DNA from: Isotricha intestinalis
Taxonomy: Eukaryota > Ciliophora > Litostomatea > Vestibuliferida > Isotrichidae
Length of the DNA stretch: 42,085 nucleotides
Direction: 5' to 3'
Assembly (NCBI GenBank): GCA_023807065.1
Contig: JAJJLU010000452.1
Location: 1 to 42,085, forward strand
Made by a program: the position numbers and the translations under genes. The first letter of the stretch is position 1. The number at the start of each line of letters is the position of its first letter. Shown in pieces: positions 17,285 through 36,862 of this stretch. The notes beneath the pieces were generated by a model. It made no database searches. It was not told the DNA's origin and worked only from the letters and a program-made list of their open reading frames with translations.

Positions 17285-19960
17285 ATGTTAAAAAAAAAAA
17301 AAAATAGAGATTTAAATGAAAAATTATCAGATACAAAAAAGCCAATAAATATACCAAAAATATCTTTAACTCAAATTTCTTCTGATTTTTCTCTTATTAA
17401 TCATATTCCTGAAATAACAAATAAAGTTTATCTTAGAAGTCATTCAATTAAAATAAAAGATCATAGAGATAAGAAAGAAAAAGAGAAAGAAGAAAAAAAA
17501 ATAAAAAATAAAAAAAGAAAAAGTAAATCACAGAAAAAAGTAAAAAAAAAATTAGATGAAGAAGATGAAATTGATAAAAATAGTGAAAGTGAAATTATTT
17601 CACTTAAAGAAGAAGAGAAAAAAGAAGAAGAAGAGAAAAAAAAAAGTAAAAAAGGTAGAAAAGTAAAAAAAGAGGAAAAAGAAAGAAAAGAAAAAGAGAA
17701 AAAAGAAAAGAAAGAAAAGAGAGAAAAAGAAAAGAAAGAGAAAAAAGAAAGAAAAGAAAAAGAGAAAAAAGAGAAAAAAGAAAAAGAGAAAAAAGAGAAA
17801 AAAGAAAAGAAAGAAAAAAAATATACAATAATGACATCTCGTACAAAAATATTAAATGAAGACTGTCCATTATTTTTAACAGGAAAATGTCCAAAATTAT
17901 TTTGTGACAAAATTCACAATTATTCAAAATTATATCAAATAGAAAACAATGAGAAATTTAAAGAAAATTTAACATATCTTCAAAAAGATTTTTCACTTCT
18001 TCTTCCATATCAAAAAAAATTATTCTCTAACCAAAATTTAGATATATTATTTTTATGTGATTGTACAGGATCAATGCAGCCATATATAAATAAAGTAAAA
18101 GAAGAGTTAAAAAACATAATAAATTTTATATTAGAAAATAATCCCTATGCAAATATAAAAATATCATTTATAGGATATAGAGATATAAAAGATATAAAAA
18201 GATATGAAATAATAGATTTTACATCAGATATAGATTTAATAAGAGATTTTATTGGTAAAATTATTGCTGATGGAGGAGGAGATCTTCCAGAAGATTTAAC
18301 AGGAGCATTAAAAAAAGTATTAGAAATGTCTTGGAGAGAAAAAAGTGCTAAATATGCAATAATAATTAGTGATGCTCCTTGTCATGGAATTAAATATTTT
18401 AAGAATTTAGGTTTAAGTGATGATTTTCCTAAAGGAGATCCTGATGGTTTAATTCCTGAAAAATTTATTGAAGATATTGCTAAAAAAAATATCACTTTAT
18501 ATGCTTTAAAAATTAAATATTATACTGATTATATGTATGAATTGTTTAATGAAGTTTATTCTAAATTTAACCAATTTCATAATCCTATTATTATTTGTGA
18601 TTTAGGAAAAAGTTTAGATAATTTCGGATTCTTAGTTGCTGTTAGTAGTAATACTACTTTAAATAATTTAACTGTTAATCAATTACCTTTAAATGATATT
18701 TTATTTGATTTAGATAAACAAAAAGAAAATGATGATCAAAAAATTTTGATTCAAAATTTACTTACTAGAGTTAAAAATTCTCAAAGTTTAATTAATAATT
18801 CATTATCTAATGATGATATTGTTAAATTAAATGAAAATGTTGATTCAAATAGAACTTATGAAATGTTTGAAAAATTAAATAAAGATAAAAAAATAAAAGG
18901 AATATGTCATAGTTTCATAATAAAAAAAGATAGATATTTAAATATAAATTGGGAAAATCCATATATAAGTCATTATCAAATAGAAACAGAATGTATAATA
19001 GATGATAATCCTTTTAATGAAGGAGCAGAAAGATATGCATATTATATGTATGATACCAAAGTAAAAATGAAATATGTAGCAAAACAAAAAAAAATATATT
19101 CTAAATCTCAAAATAATTTATCTTCATTTCAAAAAGAATTAGAATCAATAACAATATGTCATCATATAGCAAACGAATTCAATGAAAGAATAGTAAATTA
19201 TTTACCAAAAGGGAAGACAAATATATTAATAAATTTCATTCATTCCTATATATATGAAATAGGAAAAGATAAATATTATTATGTAGAAAATTTAATTCCA
19301 GGGAAATATGTAAAATATAATAACAATGCAGGATGGATATCAAATTCAATAGAAGAACAAACTTTATTAGCTCAATCATTTAGTCATTTTTCATATCAAA
19401 TAAGTAAAGGATATTTAATTATAGTAGATTTACAAGGTGTTGGAGGTTATTTAACAGATCCTCAAATTCACTGTTTAAATGGAAATAAATTTGGAAATGG
19501 AAATTTAGGTTATGTTGGTATAATTAAATTCTTTTTAACTCATCATTGTAATAAATACTGTAAATATTTAAATTTAATTCATCCTGTTGATTCTAATTAT
19601 ATTATTGATATTAATAATTTCGATTTTTATGTTGATAAATTTGAAGAACCTGAAAATAAAGATTCTGAAATTTATAAATTATGTGATTTATGTAGAAAAC
19701 CTTTTATGATGAAAAGTGGAATTGCTTTTGAAAATAGAAAAAAATGCTGGGAATGTTTTTGTAATGATTGTGATGAAAAAAGAAAAAAATCTTTCAAAAA
19801 TGGAAATTGTGAAAAATGCGGAAAATTTTTCATGAGTAGTGAATATTTGTTTTTAATGAAAAGAATTCCTTTCACTAAATTATGTATGAAATGTAGACAA
19901 GAAGAAATTAATGAAGAAAGAGAAAAGTTTTACAAAGAGTTTTTTGATAATAAAAAATAA
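17285..19960 (+). CDS. CCCH finger, vWA and alpha-kinase protein (VwkA-like)
   Basis: This 891-residue protein has five regions. Residues 55-185 are a Lys/Glu low-complexity stretch. A CCCH finger follows (C194, C202, C207, H211). A von Willebrand A domain spans about 253-440 with MIDAS D259-x-T-G-S263. An alpha-kinase domain spans about 560-770. The C-terminus is Cys-rich (CDLC, CWECFCNDC, CEKC, CMKC). Kinase residues are all present: K600, the zinc His H701, DLQ at 715-717, D725, glycine loop GNGNLG 737-742, and zinc ligands H753, C755, C759, with TRPM7-like spacing. The vWA plus alpha-kinase pairing is that of Dictyostelium VwkA, which affects myosin II and the contractile vacuole. The kinase should phosphorylate Ser/Thr. 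The added CCCH and Cys-rich domains are not part of VwkA as I know it. Confidence 0.93.
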   Translation: MLKKKKNRDLNEKLSDTKKPINIPKISLTQISSDFSLINHIPEITNKVYLRSHSIKIKDHRDKKEKEKEEKKIKNKKRKSKSQKKVKKKLDEEDEIDKNSESEIISLKEEEKKEEEEKKKSKKGRKVKKEEKERKEKEKKEKKEKREKEKKEKKERKEKEKKEKKEKEKKEKKEKKEKKYTIMTSRTKILNEDCPLFLTGKCPKLFCDKIHNYSKLYQIENNEKFKENLTYLQKDFSLLLPYQKKLFSNQNLDILFLCDCTGSMQPYINKVKEELKNIINFILENNPYANIKISFIGYRDIKDIKRYEIIDFTSDIDLIRDFIGKIIADGGGDLPEDLTGALKKVLEMSWREKSAKYAIIISDAPCHGIKYFKNLGLSDDFPKGDPDGLIPEKFIEDIAKKNITLYALKIKYYTDYMYELFNEVYSKFNQFHNPIIICDLGKSLDNFGFLVAVSSNTTLNNLTVNQLPLNDILFDLDKQKENDDQKILIQNLLTRVKNSQSLINNSLSNDDIVKLNENVDSNRTYEMFEKLNKDKKIKGICHSFIIKKDRYLNINWENPYISHYQIETECIIDDNPFNEGAERYAYYMYDTKVKMKYVAKQKKIYSKSQNNLSSFQKELESITICHHIANEFNERIVNYLPKGKTNILINFIHSYIYEIGKDKYYYVENLIPGKYVKYNNNAGWISNSIEEQTLLAQSFSHFSYQISKGYLIIVDLQGVGGYLTDPQIHCLNGNKFGNGNLGYVGIIKFFLTHHCNKYCKYLNLIHPVDSNYIIDINNFDFYVDKFEEPENKDSEIYKLCDLCRKPFMMKSGIAFENRKKCWECFCNDCDEKRKKSFKNGNCEKCGKFFMSSEYLFLMKRIPFTKLCMKCRQEEINEEREKFYKEFFDNKK
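17665..17821 (+). repeat. 157-nt pure purine tract inside the kinase gene
   Basis: Every base from 17665 to 17821 is A or G on the plus strand. It encodes the KEKKEKK-type stretch, using AAA, AAG, GAA and GAG codons. Shorter purine runs precede it from about 17460. Confidence 0.95.
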
Positions 19961-21661: not shown

Positions 21662-22726
21662 TTAAATTGCAACTTCTTTTTTGCAAATAGGACAAATTTT
21701 ATTATCTTTAAACCAGATATCAATACATTGAGGATGAAAAATATGTTTACAGTGCAATATTCTCACAACATTTTTTTCATTAAAAGTTTCTTTGCAAATA
21801 ACACATTCTTTCCATTCAAATTTTTGAGGAGAATAATGTTCAATTTTTAAACATAACTTTTGTTCAGTAGAAAGTCCTTTACTAACATTTCCAATTTTAT
21901 TTTCTAATTCTAATATTTGTTCATAAGTCATATTATCAACATCAATATCATCAATAAAAGAATTATTATATGAATTATTACTTATTGAACTATCATTATT
22001 CCTTTCTTCTAAATTTACACTTGAAAACACATTTTTTTGAAAAATATTTGATTCTTTTTTTATTTGAAATGGATTAAAATGATTATTTTGTTTATATGAT
22101 GTATTATTCATTGGAATAAAAGGATTATTATAATTATTTTTTGATGAAAAATTAATATTATAATTATAATTGTTTGGAATAAATGTATTATTTATATTAT
22201 CAAAATTATTCCTGATATTTATATTATTTAAGTTTAATGGATTATATATATTGTTATTATTTTTTTTTAATTGAAAGTTTTGATCAAAAACTGGAAATTG
22301 TTGATTTTCATTAATATTGTTTTGTAATGAATAATTATCAAAACTTATTGAATTCAATGAATTTAAAATATCATTTTCTTTTTGATTTATTATTTTTATA
22401 TTATTATTTATTATATTATTTTGTAATATATTATTATCATTTATTCCTAACATATTTTCATATTTTTTTACTTTATCATTCAATTGTTTGATTTTTTCAT
22501 TTAATAAATGGATTTGATATTTTAATTGAGAATTTTCATTTTCTAAATTTTTAATTTTTTTTTCTGGAGATATTTTTGTTAACAAATCGAAATTTCTATT
22601 TTTTATTTCACGAGAATTGAAATTAGATTTTGGTTCAATAAAATTTTTATTAGTTTTATTATTATTTACATCATTTAAATTATCTTCGATGTTTGAGAAA
22701 TTAAAGAAACCAGATATTTCAGTCAT
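21662..22726 (-). CDS. RING-H2 finger E3 ubiquitin ligase
   Basis: The start at 22726 (MTEISGFFNF) gives 354 residues and has the usual A-rich leader. The frame extends to 22795, but those 23 residues form a hydrophobic run typical of translated leader. At the extreme C-terminus is a RING-H2: C308-x2-C311, C326-x-H328-x2-H331-x2-C334, C345-x2-C348, with the Trp in DIWF and the CPIC end typical of E2-binding RING-H2 domains. A short coiled coil lies near residues 60-95, then about 170 residues of Asn-rich low complexity. It should transfer ubiquitin from an E2 to an unknown substrate. No transmembrane or PA domain is present, so it is probably cytosolic. It lies just downstream of the IP3R-like gene on the same strand. 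Confidence 0.92.
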   Translation of the reverse strand: MTEISGFFNFSNIEDNLNDVNNNKTNKNFIEPKSNFNSREIKNRNFDLLTKISPEKKIKNLENENSQLKYQIHLLNEKIKQLNDKVKKYENMLGINDNNILQNNIINNNIKIINQKENDILNSLNSISFDNYSLQNNINENQQFPVFDQNFQLKKNNNNIYNPLNLNNINIRNNFDNINNTFIPNNYNYNINFSSKNNYNNPFIPMNNTSYKQNNHFNPFQIKKESNIFQKNVFSSVNLEERNNDSSISNNSYNNSFIDDIDVDNMTYEQILELENKIGNVSKGLSTEQKLCLKIEHYSPQKFEWKECVICKETFNEKNVVRILHCKHIFHPQCIDIWFKDNKICPICKKEVAI

Positions 22727-22911
22727 TTTTTTTAATATATTATATAAAAAAAATAAAATAATAGGTAAATATAATATCATATTTATAATATTCAATAATT
22801 TTTTAATAAATTAGTTTATAAAAAAATTGTTGACAAAAAAAATACTTTTTAGAATTATTTTGCTTCTTAAATTCAATCAATTAATGATTATATCTTTCTT
22901 TAATATTATTA

Positions 22912-25900
22912 TTATTTATAGAATAACATACTTTTACAACATTTTACAGGAAAGCATTGAATATTTCTATCTTTTAAACAAGAAACAATAAAACTTTGAT
23001 CAGCATCTAAATCTTTTTCATTAATCCTTTTAACATAAACAAAAAATTTAATATAATGTTTTAAATTATGTTCATATTTTTGATGTTCGAAAAAATCGAT
23101 TTTTTTTTTCTCAAAATCCAATCTATCAATATTACAAATAAAGCATTTATTTTTAATATCTTCTTCTTTTTCATTACTTTCTTCTCTAATTTGTGAAAAA
23201 GTAGAAACAATGACTCCATTAATCATATTTAATAAGAGTAAAATGACAGTAATGTAAAAGACTAAATCAGAAACCCATCTTAATAAATATAAAGACATTA
23301 TATCAAAACTTTTTTGTTCAATTATATCTCCAATTCCTCCTCCAGCTCTAACACCATGATTGAAGAAATTAATTGTACATTCTAATAAATTTTGACAGAA
23401 ATTTTCTCTAACACCTTCTATTTCAATATTATATTCATTTATTAAGAAATAAAAACCAAAATTTGAATAAAAGAATATTAATATTGCTAAGAAACCTATC
23501 ATACAAACTAATTGAGTTAATCTTATTTTAAAAGCTAAAACTATTTCTTTTATTGTATCTACAAATTTTATTATTGAAAGTAATTGAAGAGCAAATAAGA
23601 AAGAACCATATTCTGAAAAAACTCCTCCAATTCCCATAATAATAATTAATAGAAGTAAATATATTTCATCATTAAATAAAAAAGCATCAAATACATATAC
23701 TTTAATTGCTTCTAATATTGTTAATTTATGATCTTTTCCTAATTCATTTTTTGAAAGTAAAACATAGAAATTATATTTTGATATTATAAATATTATTAAA
23801 AATATTACATCCATTATTACTTGTAATCCTACAAAAAATCTTGTTGAATATTCTAATATTAATTCATTTGATTCATTTACTCCTGTTAAAAAAAGTAATA
23901 AAACAAAATTAATAACTAATGAAATAATAAAATTATAAAAACCAACATTTTTATAATCAATAGTTAATAAATTTTGAATATATTTAGATTTTTTAAAAAC
24001 AGAAGTTTTATATTCTACTTCACTCATAAATAAATTTAAAGCATCAATTAAACTTTTTAATTTAGTGGTTGAAGTACTTCTATCAACATCATGTAAGAAA
24101 TTTTCAATATTATTTTTTGAAATATAATAAAAATGAGGATCAACAATAAAATAAATAATTTTTAATTCTAAATTATCATCATTTTCAACTTTAAATTCAC
24201 ATTTTCTAATAGTTTTATTAAAAAATTTTGAAGTAACAATATAATCATTCATATAATTATGATCAATTGGTTTTACTTTTTCCATTGAAATTGTTTTATT
24301 TCCACCAAATAAAGATAAAGTTCCAATTTGATTAAAATGTTCTATTTCAAAAACTTTACTTGACATTAAATCTTTTTCAGCATATTTTAAAATTTTTTGA
24401 GCTTCATTTAAATCATATTTTTCTCCTATTATTGTTAAAAATAAATACATTTGACTTGCTAATTTAAAGAAATTATCTTCATAAAAATGAGGATTTGTTT
24501 TAAAAATATTTCTTAAATCTCTCATTGAATTAGCATTTAATTCTAAAAAATAAAATAATTTATAAAATTCTTCTTTATTATAATTAATTCTACATAAATG
24601 AGAAATATATAATCCTCTTAAATAAACACAGATAATTTCAAATAATTTATCAGGAGGAAATAGAAAAATAAAAGCTCTAATAATAGAAGAATCAATATTT
24701 TCTTGAGATAAGACATTATTCATTGTAACAAATAAATAATATTTCATATGAAAAGATAATTTATTAAAATAATCATCTTTATCAAATAAAACATTTTTAA
24801 TTTGATTTGCTAAAGAAAGGAAAATAAAACCTTTATTAATGGGATTATTTTCAAAAGTTCCATCTTCTTGAAAAACTTCATAATCAGAAGGTAAATTTTT
24901 TTGATAAAAATTTTTAAAATTTGAAGTATCAGTTCCTTGAATCATTTCAACAATTAAATCACTATATCTAGTATATAATTCAATAATATTTTCATAATTT
25001 TTAAAAGGAGTTAAACTTTTAAAAACTTGACTTTGAAAATCATTTTCAACATGCATACTAAAATTAATAATTTTCATCATAGAACAAATTAAATTAAAAA
25101 ATGAAACTTGTCTAGTATATAAAAATTGTATTTTTTCTTCTTCTAAACCTAAATCTTCACTTTCATAAGTAGTAATATCACTTTTAGAAGAATTTTCTTT
25201 TTCTTTTTCTTTATCTTTATCTTTTAAACTGTTAATAAATTGAGTAAAACCAACTCCAGTTGAAATAGTTGCTCTTTTTTTTTTAACAATATCTTCATTA
25301 TTTATATTTGGAGATAAATTTATTCTTGCATTTGTTGTTGATCCATATCCTTTTCTATGGGAGTATATGTTTTTATTGTTTTGAAGAAATTTTTCTGGGT
25401 CAAAATACATTTCAAAAAATTTACTTTGAAATTCTTTATTATGTCCTTCACATAAATTTTGAATAAATTTAATTGCATTTTTACCCATATGAAATGCTAT
25501 TGTATCAAATTTTCCTATTTTTAATATTTCATCTGATATATTTGTTAAGAAATCTATATCATATATTTTTTTCACTTCATTTAATGTGGAACCTACAATT
25601 AATCTTTGGATTAAATATTCAAAAAAATTGTCTGGAAGATTTAAATCTTCACTTACAAAAGCTTCTTGAAAATTATCTGAATCATTATTGAAAAAGCCAT
25701 TAAAATATATTAAAATATATGCATTTTGAAATTTAAATTTTGTTATTTTTTTTATTTCTGGTTTGTATTTATCTTCTGTTATTATTCTTATGTTAAAATC
25801 TGTTAATATATCAAATAATTTTATTTGAAGGTAGTTTAATATATATATTCCAAAATCTATTTCTAAATCATGTTTACAAAAACGATATGAATCTATTATA

Positions 25901-28900
25901 GATAAATTATCATCATATGTTTTTGATTTAGATTTTTTATATATATTATATAATTTTATTTTCATTATATTTGTTTTTTCTTTTATTTTTTCTGAAACTG
26001 TATTTTGAGTTTGAATTGAACTTTTTGATATTAATCTTGATGATTCATCTTTTTGGAAATTTATTATTTTATGTATATTTTTCTGATATATTTCAAATAT
26101 TTTTGCTAATTCAAAATATTTAATTTTTTCTCCCATTTTTTTAGCATCTACATAAATATCATCTAAAACACTTTTTGTAAGTTCATTTTTAACTGTAAAA
26201 TTTTCATAATTATATATTAATTTTTCTACTTGATATCCTTTTTTATTATCATCTAATATAACATTACTATAAAATGAAATTGTATTTTTTAAAAAGTAAA
26301 AAACTAATTTATAAAAAATATAAACATCTTTTCCATAAATTTCATCAGAATCTAAAACAAAAGAATTAATTAAAGTAAATAAAGGTCTCATGAAAATATT
26401 TTCATAATATTTAAGTGGAAAATGATGATCAACATTATCTTTATTTGAATGAGTAAAATAATAATTAAATTTTTTAATATCATATAAAATAAAAATTTCT
26501 AATAATTCTTTTCCAATTTGAATAATTTGTTCAATTTTAGGAATTTGTTCATCTTTTAAAGAATGTTTACTTAAATGAATTAAATTTATATTATCTTTAA
26601 CGTCAGGCATATATAAATTTTCAAGAGTTTCACTCATTCTTTCAATTTGAAAATGAATAGGTTGTTTTAAAGTAAAATAATATCTTGTTAAAGCATATTC
26701 AACTTCAATTGGAATGTTTTCAAATTTTTTTTCTAAAAACTTCATATAATTATTGATAAATTCATCTCTTGGAATAATATCTGCTTTATCCATATAATTA
26801 TAAAATTCAATATCTGTATCATATAATTCACATAAGAAATTATAATATTGAGGAATAAATTTAATTATATCTTTTTTTTCTTCTATTTCTGATTCTTCCA
26901 TATCTTCTTCTTTTTTTGGCTCTTTTAATCCTAATAATTCTTGAAAATAATCATTTATTCTTTCCATTATATTTTCATTTGTACTTATATAGGAAAAAAC
27001 ATGTTCAAATGCTTCTATTGCGTTTAAAAAATCACTTTTTTGAATTGTTATTTTTTTTATACTCTTAATTGAAATTCTCATTAATTCAGCTAAAATATTT
27101 AAATTATCCTTATTTAATAATAGTAACTCTGAAATAACTTCACTAAAAAAATAAAAATTTTCAAAAGTATATTTTTTATTAATTTCATCTTTTTCATCAT
27201 TTTCATTATCATCACTTTCATTTTCTTCAACATTATTATTACTAATAGTATCATTATTATTACTAGTATTACTATAATTAACATTACTTGTATTATTATT
27301 ACTATTACTACTATTATATTTATTATAATTGTCAACATCAATTCCACAATAAATCATTTCACTTAATCTTTCTAAAAAATCTAAAGTTGTAGAAATAACA
27401 TCATTAAAAGTTACAGCAAAAATTTGTGGTTTAATATTCATAACAAAAGTTAGCATTCTACAATCTCTATTAGCTAAAAGGAATAAAAATTTTAAAAGGA
27501 AATTAATATTATCTATTAAATCATCTTTATTGTAATCAAATCCTTCATCAGGTTGAGGATAAATTTTTCCACATGAATATATATGAATAAATTCTTCTAC
27601 TTTTTGAAAGAAAACAGAATAAAAAATCACTTTTCTTATTTTTTGTAATTTATCAAAGCTTTTATGTTCTGGAGGTGAAAAAATACAATAAGGATGAGAT
27701 ATTTCATCTAAATTAAACCCTTCATTTATCATTAAACCATGAAATTTACTTAATATTTCATTTGCGTTTTCAAAGTAAGTTTCTTGATTACAATCATATG
27801 AAAAATATTGTCTGTTTATATTATTTAAATCAAAGGAAAATATATTTATCGCATCATAATATTTTTGCTCTAAGGAATTTTTTATTTTTACATAACTTGA
27901 AATATTTTCTGGATCAAAATCAATTAAAGATTGAATTTCTTGTTCATTACAATTATATATTGAATTCATATAAAAATCTTCTTTATCTAACATAACTTCG
28001 AAAAATTTTCTTAAATAATAATCAAATATTACTGTTCTTGATATATCATTTTTTCTATCAAAATCTTTAATAGTTAATAAAAATATTTTTGTTAATTTTG
28101 ATGAATCTTCATTTTTTTGAAACATAAAACCTTTTTTTTCAACAGTATCAATTCCTTGGAAATAATCATAACAAACTCTATCATTATTATATATTGTAGT
28201 ATAAATAACACTTTTCATAATATAAAAAACACTATGTTCAATATTTCCTTTTCCTCTTTCAGCATGTAAATTTAAAGTTTCTAAAATTAAATCAAAATAC
28301 CTTTTTCTCCCTTCATTATTCATAATATTGTATTTAATTAAATATTTCATTATTCTATTAAAAGTGGGAAATACATAAGACATTATTCTTTCAAATATAG
28401 AAGGAAATCTTTCATTAACTTTTAATATTGAGTCATATAAATCTAAAATATTAGATCCTAAATCATCTAAGAAAATATCATCTGGAGGTTCTTTACCAAA
28501 TAAATAAAATTTTTTAGTATTATGAATATGAATATATCTTTGATATAAATTCATATTAAATATTGTTCTCACATTCCATAAATTAGTATATTTTAACATA
28601 AATGTTCTGACAATATAATTAAATAATAATTCAGCAAAATAAAATTTAGCAGTGATAAAATTTGTTGCCATATCTTCATCTAAAGAATTTCTTAATTCAT
28701 TTAAAGACATTAAATTAAATAAATCTTTTATTTTATAAGTTCCTAAAAGTGAAGGAACAACATGAAAAAATTTATTTTCCCAAAAAACAGCAAAAGCACT
28801 GAATAATTCTAGAATTTTATAAATAATAAAATTTTTAAAAAACTCTTTATTTAACTCTGGATTTTTTTTAGTACAATATTGATTAATTTGATTGATTAAA

Positions 28901-29589
28901 GTATCTAGATAAATTTGTTTACTTTTAGCAATTTTGAAGAGAATATTAAAATTAAAATTTCTCATATGTTTCTTAAAATCTTTTCTACTTATAAAATCAG
29001 CATTTAATTTGATAACATTAATTTCATGATAATAAGGACAATAGCATACATTTCTTCCATAATCACAATTACTTAAATTATTATCATCGAATTTTAAATT
29101 AAGACAATATTCAACACAAACAGCACAATAAGTAACATTTTCATATTTGTAATATCCTCTATTAGGAGTATGTTCAAAAAATTTAGAATAAAAGCATTGA
29201 GCTTGAGTTTGTGAAGCAAGAATTTTTTCTTTAGCTGTATTTTCCATTTCTTGAGTAATCATATGATTACTTAATCCACATGAACAAATATTTATTCCAG
29301 GTACTTCAAGTGTTGGATGATGATTTTTATGACAAAATTTAGCACATGCTTCACATATTGGCTCAAATCCTTTTGTACCTGATGAACATGGACATAAATA
29401 ATATTTGGCTTGTTTACTACTATCGTTAGCATATGTACAATTCGGTACTCTTATTACTTCTTCTTCTGTTTTTGCTATAAAGTCATCGGATGATGGAAAC
29501 ATCTTCTCTTTGTCTTTCTCTGTTTCTTGAATTACTGGAAATGAATCTAGATTTGTTTTCTGGTATTTTGAGTCTTTTGTTTTAGACAT
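22912..29589 (-). CDS. IP3R/RyR-type calcium channel with N-terminal UBR box
   Basis: This is a 2225-residue single-exon protein ending in TAA. The C-terminus is an IP3-receptor/ryanodine-receptor pore: about six membrane segments from residue 1870 to 2125, selectivity filter GVRAGGGIGD at 2079-2088 (IP3R has GGGVGD), and a linker finger C2149-x2-C2152-x16-H2169-x4-H2174 with exactly IP3R spacing. A RIH-associated domain lies near 1365-1400 (KFIQNLCEGHNKEFQ). It should release Ca2+ from an internal store. The N-terminus has no beta-trefoil or MIR domain. Instead residues 51-105 form a UBR4-like UBR box (C51, C66, C68, C79, C82, C86, H87, H90, C102, C104), and residues 155-184 hold a second Cys cluster. 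UBR boxes read N-degrons in E3 ligases; here the role is unknown. The ligand cannot be IP3 by the usual pocket. Confidence 0.92.
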   Translation of the reverse strand: MSKTKDSKYQKTNLDSFPVIQETEKDKEKMFPSSDDFIAKTEEEVIRVPNCTYANDSSKQAKYYLCPCSSGTKGFEPICEACAKFCHKNHHPTLEVPGINICSCGLSNHMITQEMENTAKEKILASQTQAQCFYSKFFEHTPNRGYYKYENVTYCAVCVEYCLNLKFDDNNLSNCDYGRNVCYCPYYHEINVIKLNADFISRKDFKKHMRNFNFNILFKIAKSKQIYLDTLINQINQYCTKKNPELNKEFFKNFIIYKILELFSAFAVFWENKFFHVVPSLLGTYKIKDLFNLMSLNELRNSLDEDMATNFITAKFYFAELLFNYIVRTFMLKYTNLWNVRTIFNMNLYQRYIHIHNTKKFYLFGKEPPDDIFLDDLGSNILDLYDSILKVNERFPSIFERIMSYVFPTFNRIMKYLIKYNIMNNEGRKRYFDLILETLNLHAERGKGNIEHSVFYIMKSVIYTTIYNNDRVCYDYFQGIDTVEKKGFMFQKNEDSSKLTKIFLLTIKDFDRKNDISRTVIFDYYLRKFFEVMLDKEDFYMNSIYNCNEQEIQSLIDFDPENISSYVKIKNSLEQKYYDAINIFSFDLNNINRQYFSYDCNQETYFENANEILSKFHGLMINEGFNLDEISHPYCIFSPPEHKSFDKLQKIRKVIFYSVFFQKVEEFIHIYSCGKIYPQPDEGFDYNKDDLIDNINFLLKFLFLLANRDCRMLTFVMNIKPQIFAVTFNDVISTTLDFLERLSEMIYCGIDVDNYNKYNSSNSNNNTSNVNYSNTSNNNDTISNNNVEENESDDNENDEKDEINKKYTFENFYFFSEVISELLLLNKDNLNILAELMRISIKSIKKITIQKSDFLNAIEAFEHVFSYISTNENIMERINDYFQELLGLKEPKKEEDMEESEIEEKKDIIKFIPQYYNFLCELYDTDIEFYNYMDKADIIPRDEFINNYMKFLEKKFENIPIEVEYALTRYYFTLKQPIHFQIERMSETLENLYMPDVKDNINLIHLSKHSLKDEQIPKIEQIIQIGKELLEIFILYDIKKFNYYFTHSNKDNVDHHFPLKYYENIFMRPLFTLINSFVLDSDEIYGKDVYIFYKLVFYFLKNTISFYSNVILDDNKKGYQVEKLIYNYENFTVKNELTKSVLDDIYVDAKKMGEKIKYFELAKIFEIYQKNIHKIINFQKDESSRLISKSSIQTQNTVSEKIKEKTNIMKIKLYNIYKKSKSKTYDDNLSIIDSYRFCKHDLEIDFGIYILNYLQIKLFDILTDFNIRIITEDKYKPEIKKITKFKFQNAYILIYFNGFFNNDSDNFQEAFVSEDLNLPDNFFEYLIQRLIVGSTLNEVKKIYDIDFLTNISDEILKIGKFDTIAFHMGKNAIKFIQNLCEGHNKEFQSKFFEMYFDPEKFLQNNKNIYSHRKGYGSTTNARINLSPNINNEDIVKKKRATISTGVGFTQFINSLKDKDKEKEKENSSKSDITTYESEDLGLEEEKIQFLYTRQVSFFNLICSMMKIINFSMHVENDFQSQVFKSLTPFKNYENIIELYTRYSDLIVEMIQGTDTSNFKNFYQKNLPSDYEVFQEDGTFENNPINKGFIFLSLANQIKNVLFDKDDYFNKLSFHMKYYLFVTMNNVLSQENIDSSIIRAFIFLFPPDKLFEIICVYLRGLYISHLCRINYNKEEFYKLFYFLELNANSMRDLRNIFKTNPHFYEDNFFKLASQMYLFLTIIGEKYDLNEAQKILKYAEKDLMSSKVFEIEHFNQIGTLSLFGGNKTISMEKVKPIDHNYMNDYIVTSKFFNKTIRKCEFKVENDDNLELKIIYFIVDPHFYYISKNNIENFLHDVDRSTSTTKLKSLIDALNLFMSEVEYKTSVFKKSKYIQNLLTIDYKNVGFYNFIISLVINFVLLLFLTGVNESNELILEYSTRFFVGLQVIMDVIFLIIFIISKYNFYVLLSKNELGKDHKLTILEAIKVYVFDAFLFNDEIYLLLLIIIMGIGGVFSEYGSFLFALQLLSIIKFVDTIKEIVLAFKIRLTQLVCMIGFLAILIFFYSNFGFYFLINEYNIEIEGVRENFCQNLLECTINFFNHGVRAGGGIGDIIEQKSFDIMSLYLLRWVSDLVFYITVILLLLNMINGVIVSTFSQIREESNEKEEDIKNKCFICNIDRLDFEKKKIDFFEHQKYEHNLKHYIKFFVYVKRINEKDLDADQSFIVSCLKDRNIQCFPVKCCKSMLFYK

Positions 29590-32383: not shown

Positions 32384-33343
32384 ATGAAATTCAATTTTGA
32401 CATAGATCATTGCTCAAATTTTTCATCTCATAACGGTATAGTTTTTTTAGATGGAAGTAACCCAGGAAAATTTTCGAGACAAAATTACGAAAATTTATGT
32501 TATTTATTAGATACAGTAGGTAAATTATCAGCAGAAGTAAAATAAATAATATTTAATATACAATATAAAAAAAATTAGGCACAAAATTTAGGAGCTGTTA
32601 TAACAACAGGAAATAAATTTTTTAATTCAGATCAAAGAATATATTTAAAATGTGATGGAAATATTTTTATTGGATTTATTAAAATTGGAAAAAAACATTT
32701 ATTTATTTATGATGATATTGGTAAAATTACTGAAATTAATCCTCTTTGTGTTTTAGACTTTTATGTTTATGATAAATGTCAAAGAAATGGTTTTGGAAAA
32801 ATTATTTTTCAAGAAATGATTGATAAAGAACAAATTGAACCTAGAAAATTAGGATATGATAGACCTAGTGTTAAATTTTTAAATTTTTTAAATAAACATT
32901 ATCAATTAAAAGATTATGTTCAACAAAATAATAATTTTGTTGTTTTCAAAGATTATTTTAATGATGAAAAAAAAAAAGATAAAAGAAATTATAATAACAC
33001 TTACAGTAATTATAATACTTATGAAGGGGATTATAATAGAAATTATTTTAATAATTATGACAGTAATATTAATAATAATAATAAAGATAATAATAATATA
33101 TATGATAATAAGGAAAACAATTATGAAAATAATTTTAGAAAATTAAAAAGAAATGATATTCCCAAAAAACAATCTGGAATACAAAAAATAATGAGAAGAA
33201 GAGAAAATAATAATAATAATAATAATATTGATATTAATATTAAAGATAATAATACTGAAATTGGAAATCAATTTTCTCCTCAAAAAAAAGTTAACTATCA
33301 GTCAAGTTCTTCTGAATATGGTGCTTATTATTATATGAAATAA
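32384..33343 (+). CDS. ATAT1: Alpha-tubulin N-acetyltransferase, two exons
   Basis: Exon 1 is 32384-32536 and exon 2 is 32579-33343, giving 305 residues. The junction creates GKLSAE/AQNLGA, which matches the ATAT1 family sequence and confirms the splice. The protein acetylates Lys40 of alpha-tubulin inside the microtubule lumen, marking stable axonemal microtubules. Visible family features are the start KFNFDID, Q53 (human Q58), the FIGFIKIG strand, LCVLDFYV with C108 (human C120), the acetyl-CoA loop QRNGFG 119-124, and DRPS with D145 (human D157). Spacings between C108, Q119 and D145 equal those of the human enzyme. Residues after about 180 form an Asn-rich tail not needed for the fold. Without the intron the frame would appear to start at 32816, mid-domain. 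Confidence 0.96.
32537..32578 (+). other. Intron in the ATAT1-type gene (42 nt)
   Basis: GTAAAATAAA...AAAATTAG lies between codons. Family alignment across the junction fixes both ends. Confidence 0.93.
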
Positions 33344-35005: not shown

Positions 35006-36862
35006 ATGGGTAATTGTTCTTCACCAAATAAAAAAAATCCAAAAAATAATCAAAACACTGAACTCAATACTAATCCTAATGATTCTTTGACGATGAAAAA
35101 AATTACTGGAAATAAAAATAATAAAAATATAGAAGTAAAAGAAGACCATCAAAAAAATGATAATATTGAAACAAAAAAATTTCCAAATTCAGAAAGAATA
35201 TATGATTTACATTCAAAAGATTTAGACTTTTTAGAAAATTTTAAAAAAAATTATCAAAAAAGAAACTTTCCAAAAGGAGAATATATATTTAACAAAAAAT
35301 TAGATAATAAAATTTTAAATGAATCAGATAAATTATCTACAAAAGTAGAGTTATTTATAAGTTTATTAAACTTAAAAAATGATTCTTTAAATTATAGTGT
35401 TAAAGTTTTCATTTGTAATAATAAAAAATATGGACAATTTGATTTTTTAAAAGAAACTGAACAAAATTTAGGTTTTGAAATATTTTATGGAACAACTTTT
35501 TTATTAGATTATTATTTTGAAAAAGAACAAATTATAAGATGTCAAATTATGGAAGAAGGAAAAAAAATATCAATAATCGAATTTTCCGTGAGTTATATTA
35601 TGGGAAGTCAAAATTTTAAATGTATAAAAAAAATAATAAATCAAAATTCAAAAAATGAAATAGGAGAAATTGAATTAACTTTAAAACAAATTGATAATAC
35701 ATTAGAAAATACAATTTCAGAATTTTCAGATATTGAATTTGAATTTAATGAAAATGATAATTATGAAAGATTTTTTATATTGAATAATTATAATGATGGA
35801 AAAGTATGGAGACCATGTTATAAAAGTATGGAATTTAAATTAAATAATAATAGGTGTAAATTAAAGAAAATAAGAATAGATTCATTTTTTTTAAGAGAAA
35901 CAGAAAATCAAAATATAATAATGGAAATATATAAAACAACAGATTCATATCCTTCATCATATGCACAATTTTCTTTAAATAATATAAACTCTCCAATAAT
36001 AATATATAAAAAGTTAAACAAAACAAATATAACAAACAATAATAATAATGATGATAATAATATAATAGGTAAAATAACATTAGTGCATAAATTAATTAAA
36101 AAATTAACATTCATAGATTATTTAAAAAAAGGAATAGATATAAATTTAGATATTGCAATTGATTATACAATATCGAATGGAAAACCAAATGAGAAAAAAT
36201 CATTACATTATGATGGCGAAGAACCAAATGATTATGAAAAAGCAATTTTATCATGTGGTAAAATTGTTGGTTATTATGATAGAGATCAAATTTTTCCTGT
36301 TTATGGTTTTGGTGGAATTCCAAAAAATGAAAAAGCAGTTAATCATTGTTTTAATATAAATTTTCAAGAATCACCTGATATAAAAACAATAGATGAAGTA
36401 ATTAGAGTTTATAAAAAATCTCTTAAAGAAATAAAATTTTCAGGACCAACTTTTTTTTCTCCTATAATAATAAAAGTAATGGAAGAAATATCTTTAAAAA
36501 TAGAGAAACATCCGAAAGACAATTATTATGAAATATTAATGATATTAACAGATGGAATTATAAATGATATGAAAGAAACAATTAAATTATTAATTGATTG
36601 TGCAAATTTACCTTTAAGTGTTATTATTATTGGAATTGGAAAGAGTGATTTTACAAATATGATAGTTTTAGATGGAGATGAATTTCCTTTAACTGATTGT
36701 AATGGAAGAGTTACTAGAAGAGATTTAGTTCAGTTTGTTCAATATGAACAGTTTAAACAAGGAGGAAAGGAAGAATTAGCTGAAGAAGTTTTAAAGGAAA
36801 TTCCCAGACAAGTTGAAGAATATTATTCTTTAACTGGAAATTTTAATGAAAAGGTGTTTTAA
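35006..36862 (+). CDS. Copine with N-terminal myristoylation motif
   Basis: This is a 618-residue copine. It starts MGNCSS, a Gly2 myristoylation and Cys4 palmitoylation site as in plant BONZAI copines, so it should be membrane-anchored. Two C2-like regions lie at about 110-235 and 245-365. The copine A (vWA-like) domain follows: MIDAS D386-x-T388-x-S390 in DYTISNGKP, PVYGFGGIP, the YGPT-like SGPTFFSP, MILTDGIINDM (D516), and the end RDLVQFVQY to EIPRQVEEYY. Copines are Ca2+-dependent phospholipid-binding adaptors. The C2 regions here lack the usual paired Asp residues (no SDPF and no NxxxD cluster), so Ca2+ control through C2 is doubtful, and lipidation may replace it. It converges with the next gene, the stops being 29 bases apart. 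Confidence 0.95.
   Translation: MGNCSSPNKKNPKNNQNTELNTNPNDSLTMKKITGNKNNKNIEVKEDHQKNDNIETKKFPNSERIYDLHSKDLDFLENFKKNYQKRNFPKGEYIFNKKLDNKILNESDKLSTKVELFISLLNLKNDSLNYSVKVFICNNKKYGQFDFLKETEQNLGFEIFYGTTFLLDYYFEKEQIIRCQIMEEGKKISIIEFSVSYIMGSQNFKCIKKIINQNSKNEIGEIELTLKQIDNTLENTISEFSDIEFEFNENDNYERFFILNNYNDGKVWRPCYKSMEFKLNNNRCKLKKIRIDSFFLRETENQNIIMEIYKTTDSYPSSYAQFSLNNINSPIIIYKKLNKTNITNNNNNDDNNIIGKITLVHKLIKKLTFIDYLKKGIDINLDIAIDYTISNGKPNEKKSLHYDGEEPNDYEKAILSCGKIVGYYDRDQIFPVYGFGGIPKNEKAVNHCFNINFQESPDIKTIDEVIRVYKKSLKEIKFSGPTFFSPIIIKVMEEISLKIEKHPKDNYYEILMILTDGIINDMKETIKLLIDCANLPLSVIIIGIGKSDFTNMIVLDGDEFPLTDCNGRVTRRDLVQFVQYEQFKQGGKEELAEEVLKEIPRQVEEYYSLTGNFNEKVF

Follow-up and report, generated by a model that had tools for sequence, protein, structure and literature searches.

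In Paramecium, 34 calcium-release channels (CRCs) resembling the inositol trisphosphate (IP3) receptor have been described and sorted into groups I-VI, and an IP3-binding sequence is reported for only some of these types, which makes the input of the others a question (PMC3213138). Here we describe a related gene, P0001, in a 42,085-nucleotide stretch of ciliate DNA (contig JAJJLU010000452.1, positions 1 to 42,085; hereafter the window). P0001 (22912..29589, minus strand) is a single intact open frame of 2225 amino acids in the standard genetic code. With IP3R1-3 its product shares the GGGIGD pore, the C-terminal C2H2 finger, the ARM3/RIH-associated region, a candidate Ca2+ site and the central ARM solenoid, but it has no beta-trefoils or IP3-binding core and carries a tandem zinc module there instead. 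With the ryanodine receptor it shares the superfamily pore and ARM3, but P0001 is less than half as long, and no SPRY or RyR repeats were matched in 21 family members. Like the Paramecium CRCs it is a ciliate IP3R-like channel, but the main text on those channels contains neither 'UBR' nor 'zinc' (PMC3213138), a comparison made by description and not by sequence. Oomycete PKDRR proteins, as characterized in the published account, are also channels of protists in which RyR-type domains occur in new combinations, but they are described as TRP-superfamily members separate from ITPR/RyR (PMC7399828), whereas the pore described here is itself of the IP3R/RyR type. The first zinc domain of P0001 resembles the boxes of FBXO11, UBR4 and UBR1/UBR2 in zinc-ligand spacing and in profile similarity, but differs in the loss of the amine-binding Asp, in the lack of any RING or HECT match (Pfam, 21 channel members) and in its fusion to a channel. 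Among the matches listed in open-licence literature, we found no published description of an IP3R/RyR channel with a UBR box, which agrees with the preliminary description of this DNA, made from the letters alone, whose author knew of no such fusion.

The C-terminal part of P0001 has the pore of an IP3 receptor, homologous to the six-helix pore with a GGG(I/V)GD filter that characterizes the IP3R/RyR superfamily. A phmmer search of the PDB matched residues 2061-2219 to IP3R3 (E 2.6e-35), and the selectivity filter GGGIGD at residues 2083-2088 (23326..23343, on the minus strand like all features of the gene) aligned to the IP3R3 filter. The C-terminal C2H2 zinc finger of the IP3R/RyR linker domain, C-x2-C-x16-H-x4-H, lies at residues 2149-2174 (23068..23145) and also aligned to IP3R3; both pore and finger had been recognized in the preliminary description. 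A juxtamembrane and transmembrane channel domain at residues ~1800-2140 (23170..24192) was assigned from Ion_trans, Foldseek and hydropathy peaks, and the 50 rows listed by Foldseek for the channel part were all IP3R/RyR. In the predicted structure, residues ~1229-2222 align to IP3R3 1719-2611, and structure and profile alignments place the ARM3/RIH-associated region at residues ~1229-1780 (24250..25905). Of the two Pfam families proposed earlier for the C-terminal part, Ion_trans was recovered in the window protein (residues 1884-2138, E 6.2e-7), but RIH_assoc was not, matching six of the 21 members at E <= 1. The best alignment of the ARM3 profile was to RyR2 (E 1.3e-4) and covered the CEGHN and E-x2-QG motifs. 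Candidate Ca2+-activation residues in ARM3 are E1381, H1383, E1548 and Q1551; the equivalence to E1946 is based on the motif and on alignment with RyR2 rather than on direct alignment to IP3R3. The underlying ARM3 alignment (A7) holds 10 of the 11 UBR-type channels of the same genome; L023, which has Gln at the first Glu, was left out.

Upstream of this region, a helical solenoid at residues ~187-1078 (26356..29031) corresponds to IP3R3 from ~617 on, past the IP3-binding core. This correspondence comes from a VIA-align comparison of the structural model, in which residues ~187 onward align with IP3R3 ~617 onward; since the alignment starts there, the zinc module would occupy the place of the IP3-binding core. 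Modelling of residues 1-1080 puts strands at least three residues long only in the two zinc modules; the predicted chain is helical thereafter, and no beta-trefoil-like strand set is present. Neither Ins145 nor MIR was matched by Pfam at E <= 1 in P0001 or in 20 homologues, and the absence of the IP3-binding and MIR domains, suspected from the start, is upheld by both approaches. For the N-terminal model, Foldseek returned no match at E <= 0.001 (best, an exportin at 1.1e-3; first IP3R at rank 38), and IP3R stood out only in the second-look VIA-align comparison. A UBR4 complex chain at rank 37 was matched over the solenoid and is uninformative for the UBR box; no UBR box structure stood out among the rows listed, a result that says nothing either way.

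The solenoid is preceded by a UBR box at residues 51-109 (29263..29439), identified by invariance across 18 aligned N-terminal pieces and by family-profile matches to UBR boxes in the PDB. Its 11 putative zinc ligands, eight Cys and three His (C51, C66, C68, C79, C82, C86, H87, H90, C102, C104 and H109), are invariant across the 18 pieces, the five most distant of which were picked because they show the cluster; in a wider alignment of 43 rows, 10 of the 11 are invariant, with C68 the near-invariant exception. The non-ligand residues N55, I78, G98, G105 and N108 are invariant in 22 members, mostly of the window's own subfamily. Searched against the PDB, the 18-piece profile matched FBXO11 (1.3e-8), UBR4 (2.6e-7) and BIG (4.9e-5), followed by further E3-ligase boxes including PRT6 at 0.024-0.091, with the first unrelated chain, TGFBR2, at 0.37; a larger family profile matched FBXO11 at 2.1e-5. 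The expected UBR-box profile match was thus obtained for the family, though Pfam detected no UBR box in the whole window protein or in its N-terminal piece, and the sole single-sequence hint in this protein was UBR4 at E 0.62 (phmmer against the PDB).

We base the UBR assignment on the family profile, as single-sequence Pfam results were mixed. The Pfam zf-UBR model matched one of 21 full-length members (E 0.0057) and five of the 18 N-terminal pieces (best 1.7e-7). Six frames of about 2200 amino acids in the same genome exceeded its cut-off in a six-frame search (25.2-27.2 bits); two of them, L025 and L026, scored 20.2 and 19.4 bits when scanned as whole proteins and fell below it. Whole-protein scans gave no zf-UBR match for L030, L034 and P0089, placed P0081 and P0091 over the cut-off, and left P0098 just under it (25.0 vs 25.2). 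A B-box reading (E 0.063 in one full-length member and 0.0021 in one piece) was rejected because the profile matches down to E 0.091 are FBXO11, UBR4, BIG, UBR-type, PRT6 and E3 ligase chains. The preliminary description had called the box UBR4-like and placed it at residues 51-105. A box is indeed present, at residues 51-109, and FBXO11 and UBR4 give the top profile scores, but the ligand set is of the UBR1/UBR2 type: published work on these boxes assigns UBR1/UBR2 eight Cys and three His, with Zn1 bound by two of each and Zn2/Zn3 by the other six Cys and the third His, and in UBR4 a further Cys replaces the last His (PMC10687169).

A second cysteine module follows at residues 132-188 (29026..29196). 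Six of its residues (C132, C155, C158, C162, C182 and C184) are invariant across 22 members; H188 is not. The cluster had been noticed before at residues 155-184, and is confirmed but wider, beginning at C132. An hhalign comparison aligned the second module with the first over 34 columns, keeping the Cys register (a single comparison, E 1.6e-4, probability 51%), and because the probability is only 51% we call the module UBR-like, not a proven UBR box. The second-cluster pattern is found in 89 of the 92 sequences with the UBR pattern described below and is missing from P0069, P0079 and L033. In a divergent relative, P0086, both N-terminal clusters (residues ~90-250) resemble near-complete UBR boxes by eye; this protein is probably the best lead for the second module being a degenerate UBR box.

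Judged from the sequences compared, the UBR-channel architecture is a property of a whole family, not a single oddity. P0001 matches 74 database proteins, one of which (P0002) is identical to it and was excluded from family counts. UBR spacing is carried by 72 of the 87 homologues first collected. In a set of 115 sequences, the pattern was detected within the first 450 residues of 92, compared with 0 of 23,000 shuffles, and beyond residue 450 in none of them. In one open frame, the order of UBR module and channel recurs in many database clusters at 90% identity and at 10 further loci of the same genome. These loci come from 16 own-genome channel loci picked from zf-UBR, RIH_assoc and Ins145 matches, and the family is at least this large: 10 are further UBR-type channels (L023-L028, L030, L031, L033 and L034), two have no UBR module (L029 and L032), and four are IP3R-like channels of canonical size (L035-L038). 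Ins145 exceeded its cut-off in L035 and L036 (contigs C1205 and C1033) and in L037; this result covers L035-L037, and L038 is canonical by size. UBR-type channels hence coexist in one genome with four canonical-size IP3R-like channels. The 23 sequences without the pattern comprise 10 canonical IP3R/RyR, six seemingly truncated at the N-terminus as judged by length (P0059, P0060, P0066, P0068, P0095 and P0097), three labelled UBR-type by eye because their clusters are degenerate or partly truncated (P0080, P0086 and P0087), and four apparently without the module (P0071, P0075, L029 and L032). L029 and L032 are ~89% identical; the L032 frame reaches a contig end and is outside the pore tree.

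This tree was built from 39 of the 113 sequences that have a pore match. It separates 28 UBR-type rows, together with P0075 and L029, from eight canonical rows and P0071 with support of 99/99. It requires at least three label changes, which would fit a single gain and two losses of the UBR module were the root on the side of the canonical channels; the long canonical branches, the midpoint root and the three labels given by eye limit this count. The position of L029 inside the UBR branch suggests that it lost the module.

In the UBR boxes whose ligand binding has been described, Asp150 of UBR2 and Asp1715 of UBR4 bind the N-terminal amine of the ligand (PMC10687169). We placed this residue in the CxC motif from residue numbers and the UBR4 alignment. 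The Asp is found in 0 of the 92 channel-type boxes, which have Ser (29), Tyr (21), Lys (15) or other residues at this position. By contrast, the seven other UBR loci examined in the same genome (L001-L007) all keep it; an eighth non-channel zf-UBR match (C1756, a 51-amino-acid frame with a stop) was outside this comparison. Because L001-L007 all read CDCG, the loss of the Asp is specific to channels among the boxes compared.

We consider it probable that P0001 represents a distinct class of ciliate IP3R/RyR-superfamily Ca2+-release channel in which a tandem zinc module replaces the trefoil core, and which would be co-activated by Ca2+, not opened by IP3, with the module serving in docking or subunit contact. 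What sequences and models show is the architecture, along with its conservation and the branch apart from canonical channels. The pore, C-terminal zinc finger, candidate Ca2+-activation site and central ARM solenoid correspond to those of the IP3 receptor, and the tandem module, a UBR box followed by a putative degenerate UBR-like box, would cap the solenoid in place of the beta-trefoil/IP3-binding core. We infer a channel active in the membrane of a calcium store and most likely co-activated by Ca2+. Its UBR module, having no amine-binding Asp, would probably have a protein-docking or subunit-contact role and take on the gating function of the beta-trefoil ring: located at the solenoid tip, the UBR pair may dock a partner or form contacts between subunits like those of the trefoil ring in IP3Rs. 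Since the IP3-sensing part is replaced by zinc domains, these calcium stores are probably opened by a signal other than IP3. Lying at the position of the IP3 sensor, the conserved zinc module is a concrete candidate for the input in the present ciliate and perhaps in further ones; the ligand-sensing head of the IP3R/RyR superfamily would be replaceable, and a UBR-type box can evidently occur outside ubiquitin ligases. A bolder form of this proposal, which we put forward only tentatively, is that these proteins form a third gating class of the superfamily, opened by a protein or peptide partner on the tandem UBR module, not by IP3 or RyR-type coupling. If true, protein-quality or protein-signal recognition would be directly tied to calcium release, and the class may include the Paramecium channels described without an IP3-binding sequence.

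Less likely again is a purely structural module, a ligand-free cap left after trefoil loss that stabilizes the fold or makes a subunit contact. The conservation of the zinc ligands while the ligand-pocket Asp is not conserved would fit such a cap, as would P0075 and L029, which lie inside the UBR branch and manage without the module; its broad retention and the invariant non-ligand residues N55, I78, G98, G105 and N108 suggest instead a shared surface. We regard as unlikely a genuine reading of N-degrons or protein N-termini by the UBR box, through which peptide ends would gate or tune the channel. The channel boxes retain the ligand pattern and the profile similarity of UBR boxes, and the boxes of UBR1, UBR2 and UBR4 are described as binding peptide N-termini (PMC10687169), but the complete absence of the amine-binding Asp from the channel boxes, at a position that is variable, and its presence in all seven other UBR loci make N-degron gating unlikely and weaken the link to a protein N-terminus raised in the preliminary description. 

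Marginally less likely still, in our estimate, is that the module governs channel turnover by recruiting ubiquitin machinery such as a neighbouring RING-H2 protein. Most UBR boxes belong to ubiquitin ligases, and a RING-H2 frame (21662-22795, minus strand; 377 amino acids, TTG start; zf-RING_2, E 1.3e-11) lies 116 bp downstream of the channel gene on the same strand. However, a single adjacency is no evidence of linkage and covers the window locus only, and the channel members give no RING or HECT match, as noted above. That the N-terminus derives from a neighbouring gene or a misassembly, which would make the fusion an artefact, is scarcely credible: no sign of it was found, and it is contradicted by the recurrence of the same order in one open frame in many database clusters and at 10 other loci of the same genome.

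The window forms the beginning of contig C252 in an assembly of 57.3 Mb and has a GC content of 14.5-21.1% in 2-kb steps. Genetic code table 6 (TAA/TAG = Q) was considered for P0001 and rejected, the frame being intact, with no internal stop, in the standard code. The assembly contains 2181 copies of an 18-base telomere-type pattern, CCCCAATCCCCAATCCCC, 1150 of them forward and 1031 reverse; among the ~100 places listed, plus-strand occurrences lie at contig starts and minus-strand occurrences at high coordinates, as expected for contig ends. Positions 1-13 of the window hold a short telomere-like remnant, ccccaatccccac, and longer CCCCAAT arrays stand at the starts of many other contigs among the matches listed. 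The same telomere repeat is published for Entodinium caudatum, Balantidium ctenopharyngodoni and Muniziella cunhai, and the standard genetic code for Muniziella cunhai. Given the telomere-type repeats at contig ends and the same repeat in these three ciliates, the assembly most likely represents the macronucleus of a trichostome (gut-type) ciliate. Elsewhere in the window, one 891-amino-acid frame (17285-19960, plus strand) combines an alpha-kinase domain with a von Willebrand A domain. A frame at 32816-33343 (plus strand) matches only the last 48 positions of the Mec-17 tubulin acetyltransferase, which suggests an upstream exon or a partial gene, and a Copine-family protein is encoded at 35006-36862 (plus strand; E 1.1e-59).

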